Source of the DNA: Fluviicoccus sp.
GTDB lineage: Bacteria; Pseudomonadota; Gammaproteobacteria; Pseudomonadales; Moraxellaceae
Direction of reading: 5' to 3'
DNA: 64,000 bases
Assembly (NCBI RefSeq): GCF_030646115.1
Contig: NZ_JAUSMX010000005.1
Span: 1 to 64,000, forward strand
In this document: in pieces, positions 25,476 to 55,572 of the stretch
Position numbering within the stretch: position 1 is the first letter of the stretch
Layout: every line of letters begins with the position of its first letter
Position numbers and translations under genes: made by a program
The notes under the pieces: generated by a model
Told to the model about the DNA's origin: nothing
Databases searched by the model: none
What the model saw: the letters and a program-made list of their open reading frames with translations, nothing else

Positions 25476-26669
25476 TCATGGACAGTCTACCAACTTAGCC
25501 GTATTCGGGTCGTAGACTAAGTCTGTTATTGAACCGTCCTTGATGTGGTGTACTGCTTCGTCAATCACTTGAAGCGGCACTAGAAACCACTCCTTCGGCT
25601 TGACCGGCTGGCCAAAGCGGTCTTCTATGGTCAAGTCGAGTTGCACCGCTCCGAACAAACGGTGAAGTATTTTTTCCAGTTTGGTGCGGTTCACATTATG
25701 AAGCTTGTAAGTGGCGATAACTTCCACGTCGGCAAGTAAATAGGTTGCGTCCTTTTGAGCGCCTGCGATCCGTGTCTCTACCTTGCCACCTGTCACACCA
25801 ATCTTGTGAATCAACTCTCGGTGCTCAGCGACAAAAGGGTGGTTAGACAAGCTGCGAAGCACGTATATCGTTCCTGTCTCAATGTCATCAGGCTCCGCTA
25901 CGCTGCCAAACAGCGGACCGTCATCCCGGCGGATAAGCCGCCTCCCCACAGGCGTATCGCCATCCGGGTAGAGTGAACGTGAAAGCGAGCGCAGTAACAG
26001 GTTACTCTCGGTTTGGTTATCAAAAATGACCCGCAATCGCGGATTATCGCGTCCATCCTTGGTTTTGCCACCGGCCTGTATTTCCCCGACGTAGGCAATT
26101 TGGCCGCCGATTATGAAGTAATCACCAACCTCGATCCCTGCGTTCTTCAGGAACGGCTTGGTCATCCAGTCACCGGTCTTGAGGCCGTTTTCAGCTTCCT
26201 CGAACAAAGGTTTAAAGGCTTCAAAATCTTCGCACGGCGTGCGATTGGCGATGTCCTCAGCCGCCTTGATTTCGACATACGGCCGGACATGCCTCAGTAC
26301 ACGGATATCGTCCTGTGCGGGGGCGATGTCCTCAATACCCAACTCTGCCAGAAGGGCGTCTTCATCAAGAGCATCGACATCTATTGGGTCGGCCACGCCG
26401 GTCAATAATCCGGTCGTATCCAGTTCGGAAAGCAGTGCCTGCGCCTCAGGCAGCTTGCGTATCTGGTCCAGCCGCACCGCATAAAGTCGCTCAAAAATAT
26501 CGCGATCTTCGCCATGTTGCGGGGCGCGGCCATGGTTCTGGTGGAAACGCAGGATATCCTCGAAACCGGCGATAATGCGCTCTTCGCGCGGCGTCCGGCT
26601 TGAAACCTTGAGCGGTGTGACTTCAACGCCCAAGGCCTCCAGCAGTTCGTCATCATCCATTTCAGCCAT
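25476..26669 (-). CDS. GIY-YIG (T5orf172/MUG113-like) nuclease-domain protein
   Basis: A protein of 397 residues. A C-terminal domain at about 266-345 reads GTIYVLRSLS...HKIGVTGGKVETRIAGA...DVEVIATYKL..TKLEKILHRLF, the pattern of the T5orf172/MUG113 branch of the GIY-YIG nuclease superfamily, with the IYVL and KIGVT strands and the Arg in place. The first 250 residues (acidic helices, then a beta part YFIIGGQIAYVGEIQAGG) are not recognised. The start ATG 26669 overlaps the helicase stop by 8 bases, so the pair is translationally coupled. I infer that it is the nuclease of a helicase-driven restriction-like system. Confidence 0.82.
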   Translation of the reverse strand: MAEMDDDELLEALGVEVTPLKVSSRTPREERIIAGFEDILRFHQNHGRAPQHGEDRDIFERLYAVRLDQIRKLPEAQALLSELDTTGLLTGVADPIDVDALDEDALLAELGIEDIAPAQDDIRVLRHVRPYVEIKAAEDIANRTPCEDFEAFKPLFEEAENGLKTGDWMTKPFLKNAGIEVGDYFIIGGQIAYVGEIQAGGKTKDGRDNPRLRVIFDNQTESNLLLRSLSRSLYPDGDTPVGRRLIRRDDGPLFGSVAEPDDIETGTIYVLRSLSNHPFVAEHRELIHKIGVTGGKVETRIAGAQKDATYLLADVEVIATYKLHNVNRTKLEKILHRLFGAVQLDLTIEDRFGQPVKPKEWFLVPLQVIDEAVHHIKDGSITDLVYDPNTAKLVDCP

Positions 26670-28782
26670 TGCTGGAATCTCCCTGAAGCTGCGCCGCCTT
26701 GGCGATTGCACGATATCGCCTGAGAGCCTCCACCCCCTCACCCATTTTCTTTTCCCAAGCATCGGCGGAGTTGATGTCCGGCAAGCGGCCGCGCTCGTTT
26801 TTGAACTGCAAGGCCCGTCTGGCCAGTTCACGCGCCTCGTCTTCAGGAATACTGACCTTTTTCGCGGCGATGCTGGCCTGCACCTGCCGCAGCGACTTCT
26901 CATCCATGGCTTTTGCAAGCACGGCATAAGCCGCTTCGAAGGGGTTGATGCGGTCGATCAGGTCAATATCCAGATCGCGGACGTTGACGAATTTACGCAC
27001 TCCGTCCAACAGCGCTGTATTGCCTTGTGCCGTTCCGTCCCCTTCAGCATCCGCCCGGGCCAGCGCCAGTTTGGCCTGTTGGGTGATGTTCATCGCCGCA
27101 ATGGCGTGCTGGCGAATCGCCTCTTGGTCGGTTTCGCTAAGTTCGGGATACCGTTCACGAACGATCTTGCCCATCCGTAACTGCGTCAATTCCTCGGGCA
27201 GGGTGTTTTCCTTGTCAAACAGACCCCGCTCCAGCACGGTTTTGTCCTGCAAGAAGCTGGTGACCACTTCATTCAGGTCTTCCTTGCAGATGCGCGTGGC
27301 CTCGGCCGTCTGGGGTGTCACCAGCCCGTTGATTTCGACATGGTATTGGCCGGTAGCCTCGTTGACGCCCACATTGGCGCGGCCTTCCTGATAGCCTGCT
27401 CCATCGTTGTAATCAAAACCCTCTTTGGGGCCGCTATTCTTGGGCGTGAACTCATAGCGTGGCGCCAGCACCTGCTCCATCAACAGACTGGCGGAAATGG
27501 CTTTCAGCATATCGTTCACCGCTTCAGCCACCGCCGATTGTTCGGCCGCCGGTTCGGCAATCAGATTGGTAAAACGTGATCTCTCTTTGCCTTCTGCATC
27601 ACGGGTGGCGCGACCGATGATCTGCACGATTTCCGTCAGGCTGCTGCGATAGCCGATGGTCAGGGCGTGCTCGCACCAAATCCAGTCAAACCCTTCCTTG
27701 GCCATGCCCAGCGCAATGATGATATCCACATTATCTCGGTTCTCTTTCTGGGCCGGATCTTTCAGGGCGGCAAGCACCTTGCTGCGCGTGGCCGGGTTGC
27801 TGTCATCCACCAGATCCGCCACTTTCAACATGCGCCCACCCGGTGTTTGCACCTGATGGAAACCGGTCACAGGATCAACCCCATGCCATTCCCCCAGACC
27901 GTGCATGATTTCTTCCACTTCACGCTGTTTGTCCTTGAGGCTCTCCCGCGCATTGACATTGGGAATGTGGACAATGGTTTTCAGCGCCGGGTCCAGCACT
28001 TTAGTCACCGCGTTGACGTATGGGCCGGTATAGAAGAAATAACCGATATCCAGCGATTTGAGCCAGCGATAGCCGTTAAGCTGTTCGTAATAGGTGTAGG
28101 TGATAGTCTCAAACTTGGCCTCATCCGTCGGAGTCAGCACCGCTTCGCTGTCACCCCGAAAATAAGAACCTGTCATGGCAACCAGATGAACTTTGTCGCG
28201 GGTGATGAATTCACCCAACTGGCTGCCAAGTTTATTGTCCGGATTGGAGGAAACATGGTGGAATTCGTCTACGGCAATCAAGCGGTCATCGAAGGCTTCA
28301 ATGCCCAGTTCGTCCACCGCGAAGCGAAAGGTGGCGTGCGTGCAGACCAGCACTTTGTCTTCGCTGGCCAGAAACTCACCCACGGCCTTGACCTTTGATT
28401 TGGCCACCCTAACATCATCCGCGCCGGGGGCGTTGCATAGATTCCATTGCGGGGCGACTTGCCAATCCCAATAGAAGCCGTTGCGGCTCAGCGGCTCATC
28501 CGCGAAGCTGCCACCAATCGAGCGCTCCGGCACCACGACAATGGCTTGGCGCAGCCCCTGGTTGTGGAGCTTGTCGAGCGCGATGAACATCAGGGCGCGG
28601 GACTTGCCGGACGCGGGCGGCGACTTGATCAGCAGGTATTGCTCGCCGCGCTTGGCGTAGGCGCGTTCCTGCATGGTGCGCATGCCCAGTTCATTGGCCT
28701 TGCTGGACGCGCCGGTGCGCGCCGTGGCGATGGAGACGGACGGCACGGTGTAGGCGTTGGTGGGGTTCATCGTTGTTTTCAT
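26662..28782 (-). CDS. DEAD/DEAH-type SF2 helicase (restriction-like)
   Basis: An ATPase of 706 residues: Walker A SPPASGKS (54-61), motif II DEFH (172-175), motif III MTGS, and motif VI QIIGRATRD with the Arg finger. Between motifs II and VI lie EGFDWIWCEHALTIG and other SF2 parts. The C-terminal 250 residues are helical and not recognised. The layout is like the helicases of type III restriction and related defence modules. It starts 219 bases from the large hairpin and is the first gene of a two-gene unit with the GIY-YIG protein. I infer ATP-driven DNA translocation. Confidence 0.93.
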   Translation of the reverse strand: MKTTMNPTNAYTVPSVSIATARTGASSKANELGMRTMQERAYAKRGEQYLLIKSPPASGKSRALMFIALDKLHNQGLRQAIVVVPERSIGGSFADEPLSRNGFYWDWQVAPQWNLCNAPGADDVRVAKSKVKAVGEFLASEDKVLVCTHATFRFAVDELGIEAFDDRLIAVDEFHHVSSNPDNKLGSQLGEFITRDKVHLVAMTGSYFRGDSEAVLTPTDEAKFETITYTYYEQLNGYRWLKSLDIGYFFYTGPYVNAVTKVLDPALKTIVHIPNVNARESLKDKQREVEEIMHGLGEWHGVDPVTGFHQVQTPGGRMLKVADLVDDSNPATRSKVLAALKDPAQKENRDNVDIIIALGMAKEGFDWIWCEHALTIGYRSSLTEIVQIIGRATRDAEGKERSRFTNLIAEPAAEQSAVAEAVNDMLKAISASLLMEQVLAPRYEFTPKNSGPKEGFDYNDGAGYQEGRANVGVNEATGQYHVEINGLVTPQTAEATRICKEDLNEVVTSFLQDKTVLERGLFDKENTLPEELTQLRMGKIVRERYPELSETDQEAIRQHAIAAMNITQQAKLALARADAEGDGTAQGNTALLDGVRKFVNVRDLDIDLIDRINPFEAAYAVLAKAMDEKSLRQVQASIAAKKVSIPEDEARELARRALQFKNERGRLPDINSADAWEKKMGEGVEALRRYRAIAKAAQLQGDSSNG

Positions 28783-28821
28783 GGATATCCGGTCTCAGTC
28801 AACATGGCGGTTGGCGGGGAG

Positions 28822-28951
28822 TCAAAACCCGATCAAATCTTTACGACCACGCACAATGAATTTAAATACATGTTTTCATTAAACTTTTACAACATCAGGC
28901 CGAAGGGTTTGCGAAATTTTGCAAGCCCAATCAAAACCCGATCAAATCTTT
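28822..28951. repeat. 21-bp direct repeat in the helicase promoter region
   Basis: TCAAAACCCGATCAAATCTTT occurs at 28822-28842 and again, identically, at 28931-28951, with 88 AT-rich bases between. It lies 40-170 bases before the helicase start. It could be paired operator sites or the mark of a small insertion. Confidence 0.85.
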
Positions 28952-29000
28952 GATTCCCGACTGCCGCTGTCGATGTCTTTGCGGAGCCTGTGTACGTCAC

Positions 29001-29050
29001 AAAAACACTAGTGGAGTCTATTCGCAAAAAAAGACTCCACTAGTGTTTTT
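29001..29050. terminator. Large perfect hairpin after fic
   Basis: Two 18-base arms, AAAAACACTAGTGGAGTC (29001-29018) and its exact reverse complement (29033-29050), enclose a 14-base loop that contains A7. The ends are A5 and T5, so it ends transcription both ways. It separates the methyltransferase-fic unit from the helicase-nuclease unit. Confidence 0.92.
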
Positions 29051-29077
29051 CCGGAGTGCAGCCGCTCCACAAAGGGG

Positions 29078-30193
29078 TCATAAGACCTCCCGACCTTCCG
29101 CCAGATTGATCAGCCGTGGAAAGCACAGCGTGGCCGGGCGCCGTCCGCTGCCTGGCACGAGTTCACGCAAGATCCCGGTATCTCGCATCTGACGCAACAA
29201 TCCAAGCGTGGTCTTCTCATGGATACCAAACTCATTAAAAAGCTGCTGGGCCAGATCAGAGGATCGAAAGATGGGCTTACTGAAAATAGCATCCAGCACA
29301 TGCATGGTGTACTGCGAGTGCGTGGCGGCCTGGATGGCCAGCTTCATTTCTTCATAGAGCGCCTGAATGGCCGTCACGCGGACACTGTTCTGACTGGCCT
29401 GATAGATGATGGCCCTCAGAAAAAAGTCGATCCAGCCGTTCCAGTCACCGTCGGCTGAAATGGCCTTGAGACGCAGGTAGTACTCTTCCCGATGACTTTC
29501 CAGATACTCTGACAGGTAAAACATGGGTTGGGATAAGGCGCGTTTCTGGTAAAGGAACAGCGGGATCAAGATGCGACCAATTCGCCCATTGCCGTCCTTG
29601 AAGGGGTGCAGCAGCTCAAATTGAGCATGTACTATCGCTGTTTGAAGCAGGAAATCCATATCGTTGCTGTCCAGATACGTCTCCCAAGCCTGTAAGTGAT
29701 CCAGCAGTTGCAATGGACTGGGGGGGACAAATGTTGCCTGTTCCATAGTGCATCCATGTTTGCCTATCCAGTTCTGATCCCGCCGAAACTCACCGGGTGT
29801 CTTGTCTTTTCCGCGCACGCTATTCATGAGTATGCGGTGCAATTCACGCACAAAACCCAAGCGGATGGGGTAGTCCTGCAAGTGCGCACGCGCGGAAAAC
29901 AAAGCCTGGCGGTAATTGGATATTTCCCGAATGTCTTCGTATTTTTCACCTTGTTTGAGGAGTCCGGCTTCTTGTTCCAGCACCTCGTCCACGGTGGCTT
30001 GCGTGCCTTCGATTTTGGACGACAAGACAGCTTCTTGAGTGGTCAGTGGTGACAGCATGACTGCTGGATTCGGGATGCCTTGCAGTAGGCCATCGTAGCG
30101 CGCCAAGGCAGCATTGGCTTGCCCCACCAAGGGGAGAAGGCGGCGAAAGTCCAACTCCGTGAGTGGCAGTACGTTAGGTATGTAGGGCTGCAT
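29078..30193 (-). CDS. Fic-family protein (class II, self-inhibited)
   Basis: A protein of 371 residues. Order: an N-terminal helical domain carrying the inhibitory motif S58-x3-E62-G63 (SSKIEG), the Fic core with HPFKDGNGR (196-204) complete with the catalytic His, and a C-terminal winged helix (EFGIHEKTTLGLLRQMRDTGILREL). Fic proteins usually transfer AMP from ATP to Ser/Thr/Tyr of a target; the inhibitory Glu blocks ATP until released. The start ATG 30193 has GAGGA before it. It follows the methyltransferase gene by 51 bases. Fic genes within restriction islands are common but their role there is not established. Confidence 0.94.
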   Translation of the reverse strand: MQPYIPNVLPLTELDFRRLLPLVGQANAALARYDGLLQGIPNPAVMLSPLTTQEAVLSSKIEGTQATVDEVLEQEAGLLKQGEKYEDIREISNYRQALFSARAHLQDYPIRLGFVRELHRILMNSVRGKDKTPGEFRRDQNWIGKHGCTMEQATFVPPSPLQLLDHLQAWETYLDSNDMDFLLQTAIVHAQFELLHPFKDGNGRIGRILIPLFLYQKRALSQPMFYLSEYLESHREEYYLRLKAISADGDWNGWIDFFLRAIIYQASQNSVRVTAIQALYEEMKLAIQAATHSQYTMHVLDAIFSKPIFRSSDLAQQLFNEFGIHEKTTLGLLRQMRDTGILRELVPGSGRRPATLCFPRLINLAEGREVL

Positions 30194-30244
30194 TCGCTGT
30201 TCCTCAGGGTGTGTTGTCCAACGAAGGGACGACAAGTTGCGAGC

Positions 30245-33055
30245 TCATACTTTTTTTCCTCTGGCGGCCTTTGCGGGAGGCTTGCCCTTGGCGGTTTCCG
30301 CCGTCATTTTGGTGTAAAGCTCGAACAGTTTTTCCAGTCGTTCGGTGTCGTTCTTGAAGCGGCGGCCGATGTAGATGCGTTCCAGGACTTCGTCGTTGTG
30401 TTCGTGGGCGTGGCGCAGGTTGTCCGGCATCTGGCTTACGCCGTCTTTGACTTCATACAAGTCGGCGATGGTGGCGGGGAAGTGGGCTTCGCGGGCCAGC
30501 AGGATATTTTCGGCGCAACGGGTGAGGTCGGCTTTGTTTTGTTCGGTGAGCAGGGGGACGGGGAAGGTGTTCCAGCCCATCGTATTGGAGTAGCGAAAAT
30601 CGGTTTTCATTTTGCCACAGACGGTGCCGATCCAGACCAAATGGAGGCGAGATGCGATCAGGGCCATATTCCAAAGTGGAGCGTCGTAGAGAGCGAAGGC
30701 ATTGTCAGAGACGATGGAATGAGACGGTAATAAACCAACAGGCAGATAAAGACGGGACTCTGATGTCACCTTCGGGACAACAATCGACCATTCCTTGCTA
30801 ATTCCTTGGATTTGCCGGAATCGATGTGGCTTACTTGCATACGCTTGCGTTGATGAGGCAGGACTCTCCAATCGCATTTTGCGTACAGCAGCAAGTCGAG
30901 AGGCTATAAAATCATTTTTTTTTGCTTCCTCAGCATCAGAATCCCCAATCCAAAGGCATCTTCTGACTACACCTCGCACAAATTCTTGAGCACCAACAAA
31001 GTCATAAATAAACCTGGAAGCTAAGGGGTCAACCCTAATAACGTTTTCAGCCTCCGCCAATGATAAAACAAGGCCACCGCCATCTGATGGTTTATTACCC
31101 CACTCCATTTTTCCACGTGCATCAGATGGCTTTGAAATTGGAGAGACTATTACATTTGGTCCGGTTACAAGGTAAGCATTTATAAAATCTACTTGCTTCT
31201 CAATAACAGAAACGCCATCATCCGCCAATGAAAACAAGCGTCTTTTTCGTCTATATGCACTTGATATTCCAACAATTGCGACTGTAACAACTGCTTTATT
31301 GCTAGCTAAATTTGCCCACTTGAAAGATGTATGCGCAAAAAAAATATCGTGCCCGGCCTCAAATATTAAAGGCCATAGTATTGGAACTTGCTCACCTTGA
31401 CATATAGAGTTTGTACAAACAAATGCCGATGCTGCGAGTGTTGAGGAGCCATAATCGGCTGCCTTCATAAACCAGGCACATACATAATCCAATGATTTCC
31501 AGCTGGACGTTCTACCATCAAAAATTGAATGCAAATCAGACTTTTGGTCAGCTGACTGCCAAGTAAATCCAAGATAAGGCGGATTCCCACAAATAAACGT
31601 CTCTCCCCCCTCATTCTCAAAACCAATCTCCGCCTGCTTCTGCGACTGAAACAAATCATACGCAAACGCTTTCACCCGCGCTCCCGTCGGCGGACAAACA
31701 CTCAACCAATCCAGCCGCAACGCATTCCCGCACACGATCCAATTCTGCGCATCCAACGGCAAAAACTCCTGCAACGCATCCTGCTGCCCCCGATACAACA
31801 CATCACACTGAAACTCCGCAATAATCAACGCCAACCGCGCAATTTCCGCCGGAAAATCCCGCAGCTCAATCCCCCGGAAGTTCGTCAACGGAATCTCACT
31901 GCCCAGATGTTCCTCCCCCCGACGCCGATTGACCTCCGCCTCAATCTCCCGCATCTGCTTGTACGCAATCACCAGAAAATTACCCGACCCGCAGGCCGGA
32001 TCAAACACCCGGATACGCGCCATGCGCTTGCGCAAATTCAACAGCTTGCGCTCGTTATCTCCCGCCTCGGCCAACTGCGCCCGCAAATCATCCAGAAACA
32101 GCGGATTCAACACCTTCAGAATATTCGGCACACTGGTGTAGTGCATCCCCAGCGCTCCGCGCTCCTCATCATCGGCCACCGCCTGGATCATGCTGCCGAA
32201 AATATCAGGATTGATCTGCTGCCAGTTAAGATTGCCCGCGTGCGACAAATAACTGCGCGCCATCCGCGTAAAACGCGGCGCCTCCGTACTGCCCGAAAAC
32301 AGCCCACCGTTCACATAAGGAAAGTTATTCGTCCACACCGGCAAACGGGGCTGAACATTTGCACGATCATCGTATTTGATATTCATTGCCCGGAAGATGC
32401 ACTCCAGCACATCATGAGTGTTGGAGCCGTCGCGCTCACTCATCTGCTCCACCGTCTTGGTGAACAGGCCCGTGTTGTTGAATATCCCGGTGTCTTCCGC
32501 AAAGAAGCAGAAAATCAGCCGCGCCATGAAATGATTCATGTCATGCCGGCGTTCATCTGTGGCCCAATCCGGGTTTTCGCGCAGCAACTCAACGTACAAC
32601 TTGTTCAGGCGGCCGGTGGCGCGCACATCAACGGGGTTGTCCTTGATTTCCTTGATGGTAGATATGCCCGCCAAGGGCAGAAAAAAACCAAAGTGATTCG
32701 GGAAATCGGCGTAGGCGCAGGCGACGGTTTCACCGCCAGCCAGTTCCTCGGCTTCCAGCGTCTGGCCGTCCGTGGCCAGAATGAACCGGGCTTTGGCTTT
32801 GGTTGTAGATGGACTGGTGCGCAAGGTTTTAAGGGTGTCACCGACAGCACCTTCCGCACAAACGGCAATGTGGATGTTATTGCGTTGAAGCACTCCGCCG
32901 GTCACATCTGAAGCGTTGTTGTTACCGGTGCGCAAGCGTTTGAGAGTCGTATCCTTGTTGCCGAACGCTGCCAGAAATGCGTAGGGGAATTCATCTGCGT
33001 CAAAGGGCTGTTCTGCCAGATCGGAAATGGCGGATTCGATTTCTACTGCATTCAT
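30245..33055 (-). CDS. MmeI-like class I DNA methyltransferase
   Basis: A protein of 936 residues that would methylate an amine of adenine (or cytosine) in DNA. Order: N-terminal domain (1-160), a helical linker with HDMNHFMARLIFCFFAEDTGIF, the SAM-binding motif FDPACGSGNF (351-360), the catalytic NPPY (491-494), a target-recognition region from about 500 to 820, and a C-terminal helical part. The layout is that of MmeI, but the N-terminal D-x9-ExK nuclease site is not visible, so it is likely a methyltransferase alone. The part coding for target recognition (30720-31620) is much AT-richer than the rest. Confidence 0.93.
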   Translation of the reverse strand: MNAVEIESAISDLAEQPFDADEFPYAFLAAFGNKDTTLKRLRTGNNNASDVTGGVLQRNNIHIAVCAEGAVGDTLKTLRTSPSTTKAKARFILATDGQTLEAEELAGGETVACAYADFPNHFGFFLPLAGISTIKEIKDNPVDVRATGRLNKLYVELLRENPDWATDERRHDMNHFMARLIFCFFAEDTGIFNNTGLFTKTVEQMSERDGSNTHDVLECIFRAMNIKYDDRANVQPRLPVWTNNFPYVNGGLFSGSTEAPRFTRMARSYLSHAGNLNWQQINPDIFGSMIQAVADDEERGALGMHYTSVPNILKVLNPLFLDDLRAQLAEAGDNERKLLNLRKRMARIRVFDPACGSGNFLVIAYKQMREIEAEVNRRRGEEHLGSEIPLTNFRGIELRDFPAEIARLALIIAEFQCDVLYRGQQDALQEFLPLDAQNWIVCGNALRLDWLSVCPPTGARVKAFAYDLFQSQKQAEIGFENEGGETFICGNPPYLGFTWQSADQKSDLHSIFDGRTSSWKSLDYVCAWFMKAADYGSSTLAASAFVCTNSICQGEQVPILWPLIFEAGHDIFFAHTSFKWANLASNKAVVTVAIVGISSAYRRKRRLFSLADDGVSVIEKQVDFINAYLVTGPNVIVSPISKPSDARGKMEWGNKPSDGGGLVLSLAEAENVIRVDPLASRFIYDFVGAQEFVRGVVRRCLWIGDSDAEEAKKNDFIASRLAAVRKMRLESPASSTQAYASKPHRFRQIQGISKEWSIVVPKVTSESRLYLPVGLLPSHSIVSDNAFALYDAPLWNMALIASRLHLVWIGTVCGKMKTDFRYSNTMGWNTFPVPLLTEQNKADLTRCAENILLAREAHFPATIADLYEVKDGVSQMPDNLRHAHEHNDEVLERIYIGRRFKNDTERLEKLFELYTKMTAETAKGKPPAKAARGKKV

Positions 33056-33389
33056 GGGGCATCTTGCCTATGTATCGTTTTGTTTTTTGATAATTGCTGA
33101 GGCTTTGATAAATGGCGCGGCTCCGGGAGAGGTGCTGACTGTGTTTCGTTCATTTTGAGATAAAAGGGCGGTTGATTGAGTGCTTTTTTTAAGGCGTTGA
33201 TCCCTTTGCGTGAAGCTTGCGGGGTCGCCTGATAGAGCAGTTTACACGGCTTCGACGGTTGGAAACAGCGCGTTTTGATCGACTCTTGAGACGCTATTCA
33301 AGGAATGAACGACTGCGTTGGGGAAATCGTCTTGAAGTCCGCTGAATGATAGTGAAGGAGGGCATTCATGCGGTATTTTGAAAACCGGG
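33056..33389. other. Gene-free stretch between methyltransferase and small RNA
   Basis: About 330 bases without a gene. It must carry the methyltransferase promoter. No clear att site or tRNA fragment is seen. Confidence 0.5.
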
Positions 33390-33594
33390 AGGAGGCGCGG
33401 GGACCGGAGTCCCCGCGTGCGCTGAGTTAACCTTGCGTTGTTATTGTTGGCACATGTTCTTCTTGTAATCTCACTTCAACAGCCAGACCTTGTTATCGTT
33501 GTTAGCCTGCCCGTCATCTCATCATGGCCTTATAGTTATTATTGCCATCATTATCTTGTTGTTTGCAGCGCTGTTATTGTTCTTGGTTGCGCAT
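33390..33594 (-). ncRNA. crcZ: CrcZ-like catabolite-repression small RNA
   Basis: Directly downstream of cbrB, as crcZ is in Pseudomonas. The predicted transcript starts near 33594 (12 bases after the -12 element) and runs to the hairpin CGCGGGGAC-TCCG-GTCCCCGCG (33417-33396), about 200 nucleotides. It holds six A-rich stretches of the kind that bind Hfq: AACCAAGAACAATAACA, AAACAACAAGATAAT, CAATAATAACTATAA, CTAACAACGATAACAA, TTACAAGAAGAACA and CCAACAATAACAACG. CrcZ relieves carbon catabolite repression by sequestering Hfq and Crc. The terminator is weak (only TTTT, 11 bases after the stem), so the end is uncertain, and Pseudomonas CrcZ is longer (about 400). Confidence 0.82.
33396..33417. terminator. 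Hairpin at the end of the CrcZ-like RNA
   Basis: A 9-bp GC-rich perfect stem with a 4-base loop. On the minus strand CCTCCTCCCGG and then TTTT follow, so it is not an ideal Rho-independent terminator, but it is the only one in the region. Confidence 0.5.
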
Positions 33595-33603
33595 CTATAA
33601 CAA

Positions 33604-33620
33604 TGCAGAAGCCGTGCCAA
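33604..33620 (-). promoter_or_regulatory. Sigma-54 promoter of the small RNA
   Basis: On the minus strand TTGGCACG-GCTT-CTGCA fits the sigma-54 consensus YTGGCACGRNNNTTGCW at 16 of 17 positions, with GG at -24 and GC at -12 at the required spacing. It lies between the TGTTAC array and the A-rich transcript. The adjacent cbrB encodes a sigma-54 activator. Confidence 0.88.
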
Positions 33621-33704
33621 CTTTCACTTAAGAGATAAAAACATTTAAAAACAATGGCTTGTGAAAAATCTCGAGGAGAAGGCAAATGCGGAAACGTGAC
33701 GCCG

Positions 33705-33816
33705 GTAACATCCTGACAATGTCAGGTAACACTTTCGGGTGTGCCGGTAACAACGGAGTAACACCGGGGTAACACACGCCACCTCCGCCGAGACGGGAAT
33801 GGCGCCGCCGGTAACA
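33705..33816 (-). promoter_or_regulatory. Helically phased TGTTAC array, likely CbrB enhancer
   Basis: Six GTAACA copies (TGTTAC on the transcribed strand) begin at 33705, 33726, 33747, 33758, 33769 and 33811; the steps are 21, 21, 11, 11 and 42 bases, all close to whole helical turns, so every copy faces the same side. They lie about 110-220 bases before the predicted RNA start, the normal place for sigma-54 enhancers. From memory, TGTTAC is the half-site reported for CbrB. The last copy abuts the cbrB stop. The 7-bp palindrome CCTGACA-A-TGTCAGG lies between the first two copies. Confidence 0.75.
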
Positions 33817-50661: not shown

Positions 50662-53601
50662 GTGACCGTTGCCGCCACGCATCCCGCCTTTGAATTGTGC
50701 CGTAAGGTTCCCGTTCCTTCCCTGAATCTGGAAATGGAGGAATACCGGCACATCCAGACCGGCGCCATGCACTACCATCTGGCGGCGGACAACCCCGAAA
50801 ACGTGTTCCTGGTGGCGCTGCGCACCATGCCCATGGACTCCACCGGGGTGGCGCACATCCTGGAACATACCGCGCTTTGCGGTTCGCAGAAGTACCCGGT
50901 GCGTGACCCGTTCTTCCTGATGATCCGCCGTTCGCTGAATACCTTCATGAACGCCTTCACCTCCAGCGACTGGACGGCGTATCCCTTCGCCAGCCAGAAC
51001 CGCCAGGATTTCGACAACCTGCTGTCGGTGTATCTGGACGCCGTGTTCTTCGCCCGGTTGGACCCGCTGGATTTTGCGCAGGAAGGCATCCGCGTCGAGT
51101 TCACCGAACCGCAAAACCCGGACAGCCCGCTGGTGTACAAGGGCGTGGTCTTCAATGAAATGAAAGGGGCCATGAGCTCCCCGCACAGCATTCTTTCTGA
51201 CGTGCTCAACAAGTACGTGTTTCCCACCACCACCTATCACTTCAATTCCGGGGGCGATCCCGCTGAAATCCCCGAACTGGGTTATGACGACCTGCTGGCT
51301 TTCTACCGCAAGCATTATCACCCCAGCAACGCCGTGTTCATGACCTATGGCGACATTCCCGCCGCCGAACTGCAGGCGCGTTTTGAAGATCAGGCGCTGC
51401 GCAATTTTGAAGCCTCCGAGCCGGTGCGCGGCCGTGATGAAAAGCGTTATCTGGCGCCGGTGACGGTGGAAGAGTTCTATCCGCTGGACGAAGGCGATGA
51501 CGGTGAAAAGTGCCATGTGGTGCTGAGCTGGCTGCTGGGCCAGACCGCCGACGTGCGCGACCGTCTGGCCATGCATTTGCTGAACGGCGTGCTGCTGGAA
51601 AACTCCGCCTCGCCGTTGCGCCTGTATCTGGAAACCTGCGGGCTGGGGGAGTCGCCATCGCCGATGTGCGGGCTGGACGACAATGGCCGCGAAATGAGCT
51701 TCAGCTGCGGTCTGGAAGGCAGCGCCGCCGACAAGGCCCAGGAAATTGAAGACGGGATTCTGGCTGTCTTGAAGCAAGTGGCGGAACAGGGCGTGCCGCA
51801 GGAAGATGTGGAAGCCGTGCTGCATCAGGTAGAACTGTCGCAGCGGGAAATCGGCGGCGACTCTTATCCCTATGGCCTGCAACTGATCCTCAACGGCCTC
51901 AGCGCCGCCTTGCAGGACAGCGACCCGCTGGCGCTGTGGGATGTGGATGCGGTGCTGGCGGAAATGCGCGAATCGATCCGCAATCCGGACTATATCCGCG
52001 GCCTGCTGCAACAGAACCTGCTGGATAATCCGCACCGTGTCCGCCTCACCCTGAAGCCCGACACCGGCCTCAGCGCCCGCCAGCAGGCGGCGGAAGCGGC
52101 GCGTCTGGCCAAGATCCAGTCGCAGCTGCCCGAGTCGGAAAAACAGGCCATTATCGACCGCGCCCTGGCCCTGACCGAACGCCAGACCATGGTGGACGAT
52201 GTCAGCATTTTGCCGAAAGTGGGTCTGGTGGATGTTCCGGCCGACCTGAAGATTGCCGAAGGCCAAACCACCACCTTGACGCTGGCCGGGCAAAGTATGC
52301 CGCTGACTACGTTTGCCGCCGGCACCAACGGCCTGTTCTATCACCAGATTATCATTGACCTGCCGCTGCTGGATGCCGACGAGCAGGTGCTGTTGCCCTT
52401 GTACGCCGGTCTGCTCAGCGAGCTGGGCGCCGGGGAAAACGATTATCTGGCCATGCAGCAATGGCAGTCGCGGGTCAGCGGCGGTGTACGCATGGGCCTC
52501 AGCATGCGCACTTCGCTGGACAATCCCCTTTATGGTCAAGGGCATCTGGTGGTGTCGAGCAAGGCGCTGCATTACCACGCCGACAGTTTTGAGCTGGTGC
52601 GCACCAGCCTGCAGGATTTGCGGTTTGAGGAAAGCGAGCGGGTGCGGGAGTTTCTGGGTCAGCGCAAGGCGCGTTTTGAGGCCAGCATTACCGACAGCGG
52701 CCACGGCCTGGCCATGCAAACCGCCAGTCATGGCATGAGCGCGGTGGCGGCCATGGAATACCGTATTTCCGGCTTGCCGGCCTTGCCGCGTTTGCGCAAG
52801 CAGGTGCTGGCGGTGCAGGAGGAGGCCGGGATTGCGGAGTTGCTGGCGTCGCTGAAAGCGCTGCATGCCAAGGTGCTGGCTGCCCCGCGCCAGTTTTTGC
52901 TGATTGCCGAGCAGGAGCGTTTGCCCGGTCTGGTGGCCGAGCTGCAGAAGGTGTGGCAAGACACGCCGCTGCAGGCGGTGGGTGCGGTTGCTGCCGGTGT
53001 GGTGAGCGGTGTGCCTGCCGATGCGCCGCGTGATTTTGCGTGGCTGGTGAACAGTCAGGTGCAGTTCTGTGCGGCGGCGTATCCGGCGGTGCCGGTGAAC
53101 CATCCGGATGCTCCGGCGTTCATGGTGCTGGGCGGTTTCCTGCGTAACGGTTTCCTGCATCGGGCCATTCGCGAGCAGGGTGGTGCGTATGGCGGCGGGG
53201 CGGGTTATGACAGCAATGCCTGTGCGTTCCGTTTCTTTTCCTATCGCGATCCGCGTTTGGAAGCGACGTATGCGGATTTCCTGGCCAGTCTGGTGTGGTT
53301 GCAGGAAAACGCGCATGAGGAGCGGCAGTTGGAGGAGGCGATTCTTGGGATTATTGCTTCTTTGGACAAGCCGTTGTCGCCGTCGGGTGAGGCGCGCAGT
53401 GCGTTCCATAATGCGTTGTACGGGCGTTCACCGGAGCAGCGTCGGGAGATGCGGTCGGCGTTGTTGAGGGTGAGTATTGCGGATTTGCAGCGGGTGGCGG
53501 GGGTGTATTTGTTGCCGGAGCGGATGAGGAGGGCGGTGGTGGCGCCGCATGGGCAGGCGGGGGTGTTGGAGAAGATGGGGTTTGTGGTGGAGAAGATTTG
53601 A
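50662..53601 (+). CDS. M16C metalloprotease (presequence-protease-like)
   Basis: A zinc peptidase of 979 residues from GTG 50662 with GGAG before it. The zinc site is H65-x2-E68-H69 (AHILEHTALCGSQKYPVRDPFF), with the distant Glu in NEMKGAMSSPHS. Two M16 halves and the M16C associated region make the clam-shell chamber. It degrades short peptides. No signal peptide is seen, so it is cytoplasmic. The last 700 bases shift to G-ending codons, and 147 bases from its end are repeated at 54555. Confidence 0.94.
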   Translation: MTVAATHPAFELCRKVPVPSLNLEMEEYRHIQTGAMHYHLAADNPENVFLVALRTMPMDSTGVAHILEHTALCGSQKYPVRDPFFLMIRRSLNTFMNAFTSSDWTAYPFASQNRQDFDNLLSVYLDAVFFARLDPLDFAQEGIRVEFTEPQNPDSPLVYKGVVFNEMKGAMSSPHSILSDVLNKYVFPTTTYHFNSGGDPAEIPELGYDDLLAFYRKHYHPSNAVFMTYGDIPAAELQARFEDQALRNFEASEPVRGRDEKRYLAPVTVEEFYPLDEGDDGEKCHVVLSWLLGQTADVRDRLAMHLLNGVLLENSASPLRLYLETCGLGESPSPMCGLDDNGREMSFSCGLEGSAADKAQEIEDGILAVLKQVAEQGVPQEDVEAVLHQVELSQREIGGDSYPYGLQLILNGLSAALQDSDPLALWDVDAVLAEMRESIRNPDYIRGLLQQNLLDNPHRVRLTLKPDTGLSARQQAAEAARLAKIQSQLPESEKQAIIDRALALTERQTMVDDVSILPKVGLVDVPADLKIAEGQTTTLTLAGQSMPLTTFAAGTNGLFYHQIIIDLPLLDADEQVLLPLYAGLLSELGAGENDYLAMQQWQSRVSGGVRMGLSMRTSLDNPLYGQGHLVVSSKALHYHADSFELVRTSLQDLRFEESERVREFLGQRKARFEASITDSGHGLAMQTASHGMSAVAAMEYRISGLPALPRLRKQVLAVQEEAGIAELLASLKALHAKVLAAPRQFLLIAEQERLPGLVAELQKVWQDTPLQAVGAVAAGVVSGVPADAPRDFAWLVNSQVQFCAAAYPAVPVNHPDAPAFMVLGGFLRNGFLHRAIREQGGAYGGGAGYDSNACAFRFFSYRDPRLEATYADFLASLVWLQENAHEERQLEEAILGIIASLDKPLSPSGEARSAFHNALYGRSPEQRREMRSALLRVSIADLQRVAGVYLLPERMRRAVVAPHGQAGVLEKMGFVVEKI

Positions 53602-53871
53602 GGTTTTGGGGGAATCTTGCGCCGGAGATGGGCGGCGGGGTTCCCTGTTGTTTGCTGAGATGGATTTTTTCAAGAGAGAGGCGGTTGACGATAGATAGTT
53701 GTGGTGCTAGTTTTCGGGGAGCGTAGTCCGTTGGGCTTCGGTCACCGAGAGCCGGTTTTTTTAGGATAAATGAGTAAGCTGCTGATATTAAAGGGTAGGT
53801 TATAAAAGGAAATCCATTCTGGGCTGATTTTATTTATGGCGAATTGCGTCGTCGTAGTGAAAGGGTTAGTA

Positions 53872-54183
53872 ATGATTAGGTTTATTGGATTTTTTGAGCT
53901 GGTTTTCGGGGCTTTGATTTTTGCTAAAATTGTATCCTGGATAGCTCATCCAAATACCTACCCATTTGGTTTATATCCTGCTGGGATAGGAGGAGTCATA
54001 ATTATGTGTCTTCCTGCTATGGTTGCGCTGGTAGGTTTAATTGAATTAATATCCAATCAGCCTATTTCTGAGGTCGAAGATTCATGGTCGAAATTAAATT
54101 CAACAAAGAAGTTTTTTCTAGGCACAGGGGTGATTATTGTGTCATCTATTTTAATTGTTACAGTCATGAGTGTGTTTCTGTAA
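53872..54183 (+). CDS. Small membrane protein, AT-rich patch
   Basis: A protein of 103 residues with three hydrophobic helices (FIGFFELVFGALIFAKIV, YPAGIGGVIIMCLPAMVALVGLIELI, FFLGTGVIIVSSILIVTVMSVFL). ATG 53872 has AAAGGG in front; the frame stays open 12 codons upstream. AT-rich codons contrast with the protease gene. Not recognised. Confidence 0.6.
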   Translation: MIRFIGFFELVFGALIFAKIVSWIAHPNTYPFGLYPAGIGGVIIMCLPAMVALVGLIELISNQPISEVEDSWSKLNSTKKFFLGTGVIIVSSILIVTVMSVFL

Positions 54184-54216
54184 AAAAGTTATACTTGCCT
54201 TTATTTTTGGGTTAAT

Positions 54217-54516
54217 ATGAAAAATAATTGTGAAATAAATTTAGGGTTATTGTTACTGTTTTTGGTGCCTTCAGCATTAGCTTCGGATATGTCAAGATGC
54301 ACAGCTGTGGATGGGTCTTATAGCTATTTGACGCATCGGGAATGTAAAGCGGCGACTGATATTAGGACGCAAGTGCAGCCAGTTATTCCGTTGTCTGCAC
54401 GAGATGGCAATGATAGAAAAATTGTTAAGTGTACTTCTAAAAATAATGATAGCGTAACACTTGAGGTGGGTAATTGTAGATCATTGGATGCTTATCAACA
54501 AACGCTTCATCAATAA
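54217..54516 (+). CDS. Small secreted protein with four cysteines
   Basis: A protein of 99 residues. MKNNCEINLGLLLLFLVPSALAS is a signal peptide with a cleavage site after SALA. The mature part holds four Cys (MSRCTAV, RECKAA, KCTSKN, GNCRSL), which can form two disulfides. It is AT-rich and starts 33 bases after the preceding membrane-protein gene; both could form one unit. Not recognised; small disulfide-bonded secreted proteins can be effectors or inhibitors, which is a guess. Confidence 0.6.
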   Translation: MKNNCEINLGLLLLFLVPSALASDMSRCTAVDGSYSYLTHRECKAATDIRTQVQPVIPLSARDGNDRKIVKCTSKNNDSVTLEVGNCRSLDAYQQTLHQ

Positions 54517-54554
54517 AAGGATAGGAAAATACGGTCAGAGCAACAAATGGTTGT

Positions 54555-54720
54555 GCAGTGCATTTCCATAATGCGTTGTACGGGCGTTCGCCGGAGCAGA
54601 GTCGGGAGATGCGATCGGCTTTACTGAAGGTGAGTATTGCGGATTTGCAGCGGGTGGCGGTAGTGTATTTGTTGCCGGAGCGGATGCGGCGGGCGGTGGT
54701 AGGGAAATTAGTAGGAAATT
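54555..54720 (+). pseudogene. Second copy of the M16 protease gene 3' end
   Basis: 54555-54701 aligns with 53396-53542 of the protease gene at about nine bases in ten. The reading frame stays open from 54580 for 40 codons (HNALYGRSPEQSREMRSALL) and ends with a new tail and a stop at about 54720. It has no start of its own and cannot be a protease. The two AT-rich genes therefore lie between two copies of the same gene end. Confidence 0.85.
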
Positions 54721-54824
54721 AGGAACAGAGCAACATAAATATTTTCAGATTCAGTGATTACCGATTTTTTTTGAGCTTGTACTTGCGCGGAAATTTAGGT
54801 ATTCCAGTGAGGGGGAGACAGGGA

Positions 54825-55421
54825 ATGATGCTATTCAGTAATAAATATTATGCCTCGGTGGAAGAAGCAGAAAATAAACCTAAGAGAGTAAAATACCTTC
54901 GGCTCTGGAATGTTGATATTTCAAGTTATGAAGGCCGTTTTTCACAATTTACCAGCCTGAAAAATCTTGACATAAGCTGGTCTACTGCATCGATAATTCC
55001 GTTAGATATTGCATCATTGAAAAAGCTTCGCGTATTGCGGATATTAAATGTTCCGTTAAATGAATTCCCAGAATGGATCTGTTCGCTTAGCGAGTTGCGA
55101 GAATTAACTATACGAGGAACAGATATTTCAGCCATTCCTTCAGATATTAATAGACTTTATCATCTAAAAAGATTGGAAATTGGTAATAATAATCTTCATT
55201 CGCTTCCAATGGAAATTGGACAATTAGAAAACTTAAAAGAGTTGTATGCATCTGATAATAAATTGTCGTTGGTTCCTGAAGAATTCAGGGCGCTCAGTAA
55301 ATTGAAAAAGCTTGGACTTGTTGGAAATTGTTTCAGTGAAAATGAGGCGATCAGAATTCGGAAATTTTTTCCTGGAATTGTGGATGTTTGGGGGCGCAAG
55401 GAATATGAAGGGCAAAAATAG
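54825..55421 (+). CDS. Leucine-rich-repeat protein
   Basis: A protein of 198 residues; ATG 54825 follows GGGGGAGACAGGG. Six or so repeats of about 23 residues follow the pattern LxxLxLxxNxLxxLPxxI (LKNLDISWSTASIIPLDIASL, LRELTIRGTDISAIPSDI, LKRLEIGNNNLHSLPMEI, LKELYASDNKLSLVPEEF). The protein has no signal peptide. AT-rich codons mark it as a newcomer. LRR proteins bind other proteins; the target is unknown. Confidence 0.8.
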   Translation: MMLFSNKYYASVEEAENKPKRVKYLRLWNVDISSYEGRFSQFTSLKNLDISWSTASIIPLDIASLKKLRVLRILNVPLNEFPEWICSLSELRELTIRGTDISAIPSDINRLYHLKRLEIGNNNLHSLPMEIGQLENLKELYASDNKLSLVPEEFRALSKLKKLGLVGNCFSENEAIRIRKFFPGIVDVWGRKEYEGQK

Positions 55422-55572
55422 GTCAGTGCAACGAATAAAGGAAATAGTGGTCAAAGCAATAGATGAGCGCCGTTTGACCCGTCTTGATTTCGCCTCTTGG
55501 GCGCGCAATTCTTGCGCCCATCTCCATCGAACAGGAGGGCATTTTCGGCAAAAACAGCGTGCTCGGTCGAGA

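Follow-up and report, generated by a model that had tools for sequence, protein, structure and literature searches.

A putative restriction-modification-like DnmA-YeeB-YeeC operon with an embedded Fic gene in Fluviicoccus sp.

Organization of the locus

The window analyzed in this work is a 64,000-nucleotide stretch of a Fluviicoccus sp. genome (contig NZ_JAUSMX010000005.1, positions 1 to 64,000), and our subject is an island at 25476-33055 that had been predicted from the DNA letters to be an undescribed four-gene defense module. Four open reading frames (ORFs) were found there, all on the reverse strand and at the place first described, and the ORFs and their Pfam domains match the genes originally listed (Table 1). 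Judged by sequence, three of them form a core trio of a known kind, homologous to the DnmA-YeeB-YeeC cluster of Bacillus subtilis, and the fourth, fic, lies between dnmA and yeeB. The trio was assigned through an annotated YeeB plasmid record and the published descriptions of the cluster; set 1 of the survey described below also contains this trio from two Bacillales loci (L070 and L080).

The fic gene is 385 codons long as the longest ORF, and its likelier start is an ATG at 30193, which lies 51 bp past the methyltransferase stop and has AGGA ahead of it. The ATG of yeeC at 26669 gives an 8-nucleotide overlap with the helicase stop, and an earlier in-frame ATG also exists. The gap between fic and the helicase gene is 295 bp and contains a hairpin with a 19-bp stem and two copies of a 21-bp repeat.

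Table 1. Features of the island and of the adjoining interval in the window
Feature	Coordinates	Strand	Size or spacing	Basis
CrcZ-like interval with TGTTAC sites, a sigma-54-like promoter at 33619, and A-rich AANAANAA motifs	33381..33816	-		Motif counts
DnmA (YeeA)-type MmeI-like DNA methyltransferase	30245..33055	-	936 aa	
Hypervariable DnmA block, residues 481-800, with most of the target recognition domain	30656..31615	-		Segment divergence, GC
Fic, class II (SoFic-like family), embedded cargo	29078..30235	-	385 aa as longest ORF	
Hairpin with 19-bp stem, A and T runs, directly after fic	29001..29050	-		Folding
21-bp repeat AAAGATTTGATCGGGTTTTGA, copy 1	28931..28951	-		
21-bp repeat AAAGATTTGATCGGGTTTTGA, copy 2	28822..28842	-	109 bp from copy 1	
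YeeB superfamily-II helicase/translocase	26662..28782	-	706 aa	
YeeC, GIY-YIG (T5orf172/MUG113) predicted nuclease	25476..26669	-		Pfam, conserved residues

According to the parts of the literature consulted, to which all citations here refer, DnmA of B. subtilis is an MmeI homologue without an endonuclease motif, is flanked by yeeB- and yeeC-like genes, and makes N6-methyladenine at GACGAG (PMC7261158). A type I-like restriction system had been proposed earlier, as reported in the same paper, and conservation of the cluster was described in PMC9973331. The window shares with the clusters of B. subtilis and, as reported, Vibrio crassostreae the same three families, their order, and a methyltransferase that lacks the nuclease motif; the superfamily-II helicase gene is followed in the same direction by the T5orf172/GIY-YIG gene. 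It differs from them by the Fic gene and the 295-bp spacer between dnmA and yeeB. The trio is thus the cluster of PMC7261158 and PMC9973331, and the word "undescribed" has to be dropped.

Linkage of dnmA, yeeB, and yeeC across genomes

Two sets of loci were compared. Set 1 comprised the 80 loci at the top of the YeeB similarity ranking, and set 2 comprised 31 unselected loci taken from genomes that were drawn evenly across the class and the phylum. One locus of set 2 (L210) is the same as L057 of set 1; it was kept in the slot counts and excluded from the slot-state tree, the distance correlations, and the segment analyses. In set 1, DnmA matched over 800 residues or more in 73 of 80 loci, partially at a contig start in 5, and not at all in 2, where 331 and 1036 bp of contig precede YeeB. 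YeeC matched over 340 residues or more in 74 loci; the other matches were partial or absent and, except for L027, lay at or near a contig end. The three genes were always on the same strand. In set 2, DnmA matches preceded YeeB in 31/31 loci (at least 800 residues in 24), and YeeC matches followed it in 30/31 (at least 340 residues in 28), the exception being a contig that ends inside YeeB. The trio is tightly linked.

YeeB occurred in 12 of 369 evenly drawn genomes of the class and in 22 of 398 of the phylum, the genome of the window being counted in both. Matches to YeeB were found in 264 plasmid records, 151 of which cover at least 80% of the protein, and the two records inspected carry the same three genes with nothing inserted between dnmA and yeeB. 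Phage-borne YeeB was limited to three records, all weak or partial. Among the plasmid records, 74 from Acinetobacter match YeeB; these perhaps include the truncated yeeB pieces of Tn2006 and Tn2009 (described in PMC9258068).

The pairwise distances of the trio proteins were correlated over 92 loci (Spearman 0.65-0.78; maximum of 500 permutations, 0.24). In the closest 37 loci, the YeeB-YeeC correlation (0.589) exceeded the shuffle maximum (0.316).

Sequence features of DnmA, YeeB, and YeeC

Conservation was scored on ORFs of at least 800 aa for DnmA, 600 aa for YeeB, and 300 aa for YeeC. Window DnmA carries five MmeI domains in Pfam and matches the MmeI structure 5hr4 at an E value of 9.4e-129, and its motifs DPACGSGNFL and GNPP are retained in at least 97% of 97 rows. 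The methyltransferase had been predicted to lack its nuclease, and no E-x-K motif was found in residues 1-110 of window DnmA, as expected; a strict D-x9-ExK nuclease motif was seen in 1 of the 97 aligned rows and a looser form in 6. For YeeB of the window, the Pfam matches DEAD, ResIII, and Helicase_C were all below cutoff. Its helicase motifs ASGKS, DEFHH, and QIIGR-TR are retained in at least 97% of 109 rows. Window YeeC matches T5orf172 and MUG113 and has a long N-terminal region besides the GIY-YIG part. The residues G266, Y269, K289, G291, R300, E332, H336, E360, and W361 of YeeC are invariant in 104/104 rows. The ratios of nonsynonymous to synonymous change (pN/pS) relative to close relatives were low, at 0.10-0.17 for YeeB and YeeC and 0.13-0.22 for Fic.

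We compared six segments of the trio between loci whose YeeB proteins are at least 85% identical (503 pairs, 56 loci). Mean identity was 0.88 for YeeB, 0.75 for YeeC, and 0.89, 0.83, and 0.73 for the C-terminal, N-terminal, and catalytic segments of DnmA, respectively, and fell to 0.42 in the DnmA target domain. This domain was the least identical segment in 499 of the 503 pairs and in all of 25 disjoint pairs. Type I systems likewise change their target and keep their motor, through HsdS, and the same divergence over a constant motor suggests that YeeB and YeeC probably take their specificity from DnmA. The pattern argues for a working restriction system and against a relic. In the window, the variable block has a G+C content (GC) of 0.433, compared with 0.554 in the remainder of the gene. 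The same direction was found in 92 of 96 homologues (mean difference, -0.07); therefore, the low GC is in part common to this block across homologues.

A cargo slot between dnmA and yeeB

The interval between dnmA and yeeB was called filled when it exceeded 300 bp. Counts from set 1 refer to 78 loci, since DnmA was not matched in L027 or L059, and the gaps of L209 and L228, whose DnmA matches are partial, were not scored as inserts. The interval was filled in 38/78 loci of set 1 and 15/31 of set 2. Between yeeB and yeeC, an interval of this length was seen in 0/78 and 2/30 loci, respectively. In one of them (L229), the interval was measured from a YeeB match that is partial, and the other (L202) is a rare case with a 707-bp interval.

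Pfam or PADLOC was applied to representatives of each cargo family, and the other members were assigned by similarity. The families (loci in set 1 and set 2) were DUF1016/YhcG (10 and 2; PADLOC PDC-S02), Schlafen AlbA_2 with HATPase_c_4 (7 and 0), RhuM (3 and 3; PDC-S05), GmrSD_N (3 and 0), PDDEXK_4 of the PD-(D/E)XK type (1 and 2, one of the 2 being the same locus as the 1; PDC-S26), and Fic (1 and 0, the window aside). These six families fill 24/38 occupied slots of set 1 and 7/15 of set 2. By eye, the other cargo includes toxin-antitoxin-like pairs and an OLD-like ATPase, and several slot genes had no Pfam family match. Two 7-kb slots (L218 and L220) hold many genes, including HigA-like proteins, together with a reverse-transcriptase-like protein in L218 and a DUF1016 piece in L220, as identified mainly by eye.

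On a FastTree phylogeny of 108 YeeB proteins, the slot state changed at least 46 times over 106 rows when each unclassified insert was treated as its own state, and at least 31 times when only full and empty were distinguished; both counts are rough, as the tree has many open branches and some long rows. Among Pseudomonas loci whose YeeB proteins are 94-97% identical, the slot holds RhuM (L009) or DUF1016 (L024) or is empty (L012 and L049). The two empty slots retain DUF1016 remnants, 33 residues of the start and 11-14 of the end in different frames, and, since both ends remain, the sequence points to emptying by deletion of a DUF1016 gene. These results indicate that the dnmA-yeeB interval is a cargo slot with fast turnover. 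Defense genes embedded in defense operons are in print under the term "guilt-by-embedding" (PMC10855318 and PMC12988326, both citing a preprint). In the part of the literature searched, no description of the slot in DnmA-YeeB-YeeC was found, and the consulted portion of PMC9973331 names only uncharacterized neighbors of the cluster.

The Fic protein and its relatives

Window Fic has the Fic_N and Fic domains in Pfam. Class II Fic proteins are defined by HPFx[D/E]GNGRxxR and an N-terminal [S/T]xxxE[G/N], and both were found intact: the catalytic motif is HPFKDGNGRIGR (position 210), and the inhibitory motif is SSKIEG (position 72). The prediction of a self-inhibited Fic protein was therefore confirmed at the level of its motifs. 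Window Fic is of class II like SoFic, which is among the closest solved structures. It scores 379 bits with the PADLOC SoFic model; unlike SoFic, it lies below the NCBIfam cutoff for that family (181.5 bits, cutoff 550). After window fic, no AS1-like small gene is evident; the ORFs there are short, an example being one of 46 codons that starts with TTG. Class II Fic proteins are described in PMC12249575, where SoFic acts as a single-protein system.

The survey did not bear out a conserved four-gene module, which we reject. Of 110 loci, the window and one other (L078) have Fic between dnmA and yeeB, and the Fic of L078 is only 32% identical to window Fic; by set, this amounts to 1/78, 0/31, and the window. 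L217 has a further Fic match, which is more distant (24%) and not in the slot. At an E value of 1e-40 or lower, Fic matched 94 of 369 genomes of the class, again counting the genome of the window, and a DNA comparison gave no E. coli relatives of fic.

The flanks of 17 of the best Fic places (43-83% identity) and of 23 weaker ones (36-41%) were retrieved. Restriction genes were sought with seeds from the same loci and then checked by Pfam, a procedure in which a distant family could be missed; they lay within about 5 kb of Fic in 7/17 and 4/23 loci, respectively, one of the latter being a distant DnmA-like gene (L247). Each of the five Fics most similar to that of the window (60-83%, a 60% cut that was set after viewing the data) is near restriction genes, namely type I in L148, L149, L150, and L151 and a type III-like Res with a RE_endonuc domain in L147. 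The sixth (59%) lies in a locus cut by a contig end. The HsdR of L148 looks split into several ORFs, and in L150 only HsdM was seen, the contig ending at fic. Since the five closest lie near restriction genes, the nearest kin of window Fic travel with restriction operons. In three loci (L148, L153, and L155), Fic separates HsdM/HsdS from HsdR; L148 also carries a DUF1016 gene and L153 a RhuM-Fic protein, and both families occupy the dnmA-yeeB slot as well. No YeeB or YeeC match was found near Fic in the 40 fetched loci.

Hairpin and repeats upstream of yeeB

The 91-nucleotide stretch with the hairpin after fic folds at -36.9 kcal/mol (z = -5.18; 0/200 shuffles as good). A simple terminator scan did not call it, and it is possibly a two-way terminator. 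A simple scan found no sigma-70 promoter between fic and yeeB.

Repeat pairs similar to that of the window precede yeeB in L022 (one mismatch each in an 18-base core) and in L045 (three and two mismatches, also 109 bp apart). A single window-like repeat precedes yeeB in L075 with three mismatches, and matches of this quality also arise elsewhere by chance. The window repeat may be a leftover operator of a lost AlbA_2 cargo. Elsewhere in the window genome, a search for an AlbA_2 regulator to which the repeat could serve gave one match (124 residues, 35% identity). By eye, L022 also holds a remnant of an AlbA_2 3' end.

Tandem repeats were sought in the 180 bp upstream of yeeB, including the seven AlbA_2 loci (L014, L018, L020, L028, L038, L045, and L075). 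Six of the seven AlbA_2/HATPase_c_4 slots had 10-11-bp tandem repeats with scores of 10-74 (0/40 shuffles as high), and the seventh, L045, scored 8 (1/40 shuffles as high). The best of the 104 other loci scored 8 and the window 7. The repeat sequences mostly differ between the AlbA_2 loci. They resemble operator arrays that are contacted once for each turn of the helix; if this is true, the AlbA_2 cargo would regulate yeeBC.

Comparison with known systems

Unlike type I systems, the window unites methylation and recognition in one MmeI-like protein and keeps the helicase and the GIY-YIG nuclease as separate proteins, in place of a single HsdR with its own type of nuclease. No HsdM_N, Methylase_S, or HSDR_N domain was found by Pfam on the four window proteins. 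The likeness to type I systems with embedded genes lies in the overlapping cargo families between modification and motor genes, as in the published cases of PrrC (PMC12707154) and DarTG2 (PMC12255303). The domain order of the methyltransferase is that of MmeI and type IIL (IIG) enzymes, but no nuclease motif was found in window DnmA, and the helicase and nuclease are in trans. PADLOC labels DnmA as REase_MTase_IIG (940 bits) despite the missing nuclease motif of that type. The BREX PglX models gave 24-26 bits against cutoffs of 400-900, and DISARM DrmMI gave 91 bits, far below the MmeI-type model, the scan for partners covering eight window proteins.

Interpretation of the operon

We favor the reading, at a probability of about 0.75, that the locus is a DnmA-YeeB-YeeC restriction-modification-like operon with Fic embedded in its cargo slot. 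The target recognition domain would let DnmA read an asymmetric site, at which the enzyme would methylate adenine, as was shown in B. subtilis. On unmethylated DNA, it would recruit YeeB as an ATP-driven helicase and YeeC as a GIY-YIG nuclease, in the way that HsdR of type I systems is recruited by HsdM and HsdS, and the two proteins would cut incoming DNA or block it. Fic, a predicted self-inhibited AMP-transferase, would most likely form a second, abortive line of defense. The original prediction that the island has every part of a restriction system is thereby kept for the methyltransferase and the separate helicase and GIY-YIG protein, with which the gene order and the diversity of target domains agree; Fic is not a member of the trio.

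Several results weigh against this interpretation. According to PMC7261158 and PMC9973331, the B. subtilis cluster gave no protection against three phages and left plasmid transformation unaffected, and its authors called it a relic. The AlphaFold model of YeeC, which has low global confidence (pTM 0.38), gave 0 matches at an E value of 0.001 or lower in a fold search, and a sequence search with YeeB and YeeC found no solved structure at 0.1 or lower. In L027, YeeC is a 27-residue stub though the contig continues. In the closest 37 loci, the distance correlations of DnmA with YeeB (0.383; shuffle maximum, 0.393) and with YeeC (0.341; shuffle maximum, 0.428) stayed within the shuffled range; such weak correlations are expected if target domains recombine and also if the genes are mixed. 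The synonymous distance was saturated in six of the nine pN/pS comparisons. Finally, the link between Fic and restriction genes holds for the closest relatives of window Fic.

Whether DnmA-YeeB-YeeC is live or a relic is unsettled in the portion of the literature consulted. In V. crassostreae, deletions of the dnmA or yeeB homologue led to greater sensitivity to some phages (PMC9973331, citing another study). The hypervariable target domains, the constant motor, and the rapid exchange of defense-type cargo suggest that the trio is live in the compared lineages. If instead only the methyltransferase mattered, in gene regulation, the helicase, the GIY-YIG protein, and Fic would be leftovers, as the B. 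subtilis results would have it (PMC7261158 and PMC9973331). We regard this as improbable, since the GIY-YIG residues are kept in every YeeC row, the pN/pS of YeeB and YeeC is low, and a regulatory methyltransferase would not need a target domain that diverges fast over a constant motor.

The role of Fic is less certain. The intact trio might silence Fic and release it upon inhibition by a phage, like PrrC with EcoprrI (PMC12707154), and the placement of Fic and other cargo between modification and motor genes, including Fic between HsdM/HsdS and HsdR in L148, L153, and L155, would fit such an arrangement. It seems unlikely to us, because about half of the slots are empty and a strong hairpin separates fic from yeeB; the frequent emptiness and the turnover of at least 46 changes, or at least 31 between full and empty, mean that no partner is obligatory. 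A broader version, in which the slot would be a plug-in bay shared with type I systems, its interchangeable second-line genes (Fic, DUF1016, RhuM, AlbA_2, and GmrSD) would be controlled by the restriction complex, and AMPylation by Fic would follow failure of DnmA-YeeB-YeeC, is similarly doubtful. The chances are about even that Fic is a stand-alone, toxin-like or single-gene defense parked in the operon, which is compatible with the favored reading of the trio. Its presence in only 2/110 slots, the fetched flanks of 9/11 homologues at 43-51% identity, in which no restriction gene was found, and the single-protein action of SoFic (PMC12249575) speak for this, and the restriction genes beside the five closest Fic relatives speak against it. 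A dedicated four-gene system that requires Fic is most improbable: the local gene order suggests it, but Fic is absent from 108/110 slots, and the second case, L078, is the distant protein noted above.

The locus is, in this assessment, a known cluster with a rare Fic cargo. Of most interest to specialists are the slot in general and the pattern seen in the target domain, and the slot also offers one more host operon that can be searched for embedded defense genes.

The CrcZ-like interval and the cbrB-pcnB neighborhood

The island had been described as inserted directly after a CrcZ-like RNA, where Pseudomonas carries pcnB. The interval contains eight AANAANAA motifs (0.9 expected) and six TGTTAC sites (0.3 expected), each with 0/1000 shuffles as high, as well as a sigma-54-like TGGCAC-N5-CTGCA; we take these motifs to be the marks of a CrcZ-like RNA. 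A GC-rich hairpin was seen by eye near the end of the interval. In Rfam, the interval gave no match at the gathering threshold and no CrcZ match at an E value of 10 or lower.

A pcnB match follows cbrB within a 1.5-kb flank in only 12 of 29 loci of relatives, including the closest relative (L084/L114). It is not present after cbrB in the window; another contig of this genome (C7) holds pcnB together with the genes that follow it, and none of the ORFs at the low end of the window match the pcnB block. In genome G019, the 14 kb after cbrB also contain no pcnB-block homologue. The two genomes mark the point after cbrB as a breakpoint in this family. The neighborhood is indeed broken, as the prediction of an insertion held, but a clean crcZ-pcnB insertion was not accepted as the sole reading: because the pcnB block is found on C7 instead of beyond the island, a rearrangement is equally probable.

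Elsewhere in the window, the GC drops to 0.40 at 53600-55500, with strong skew; small ORFs and a leucine-rich-repeat-like ORF (54771-55421) were identified there by eye.

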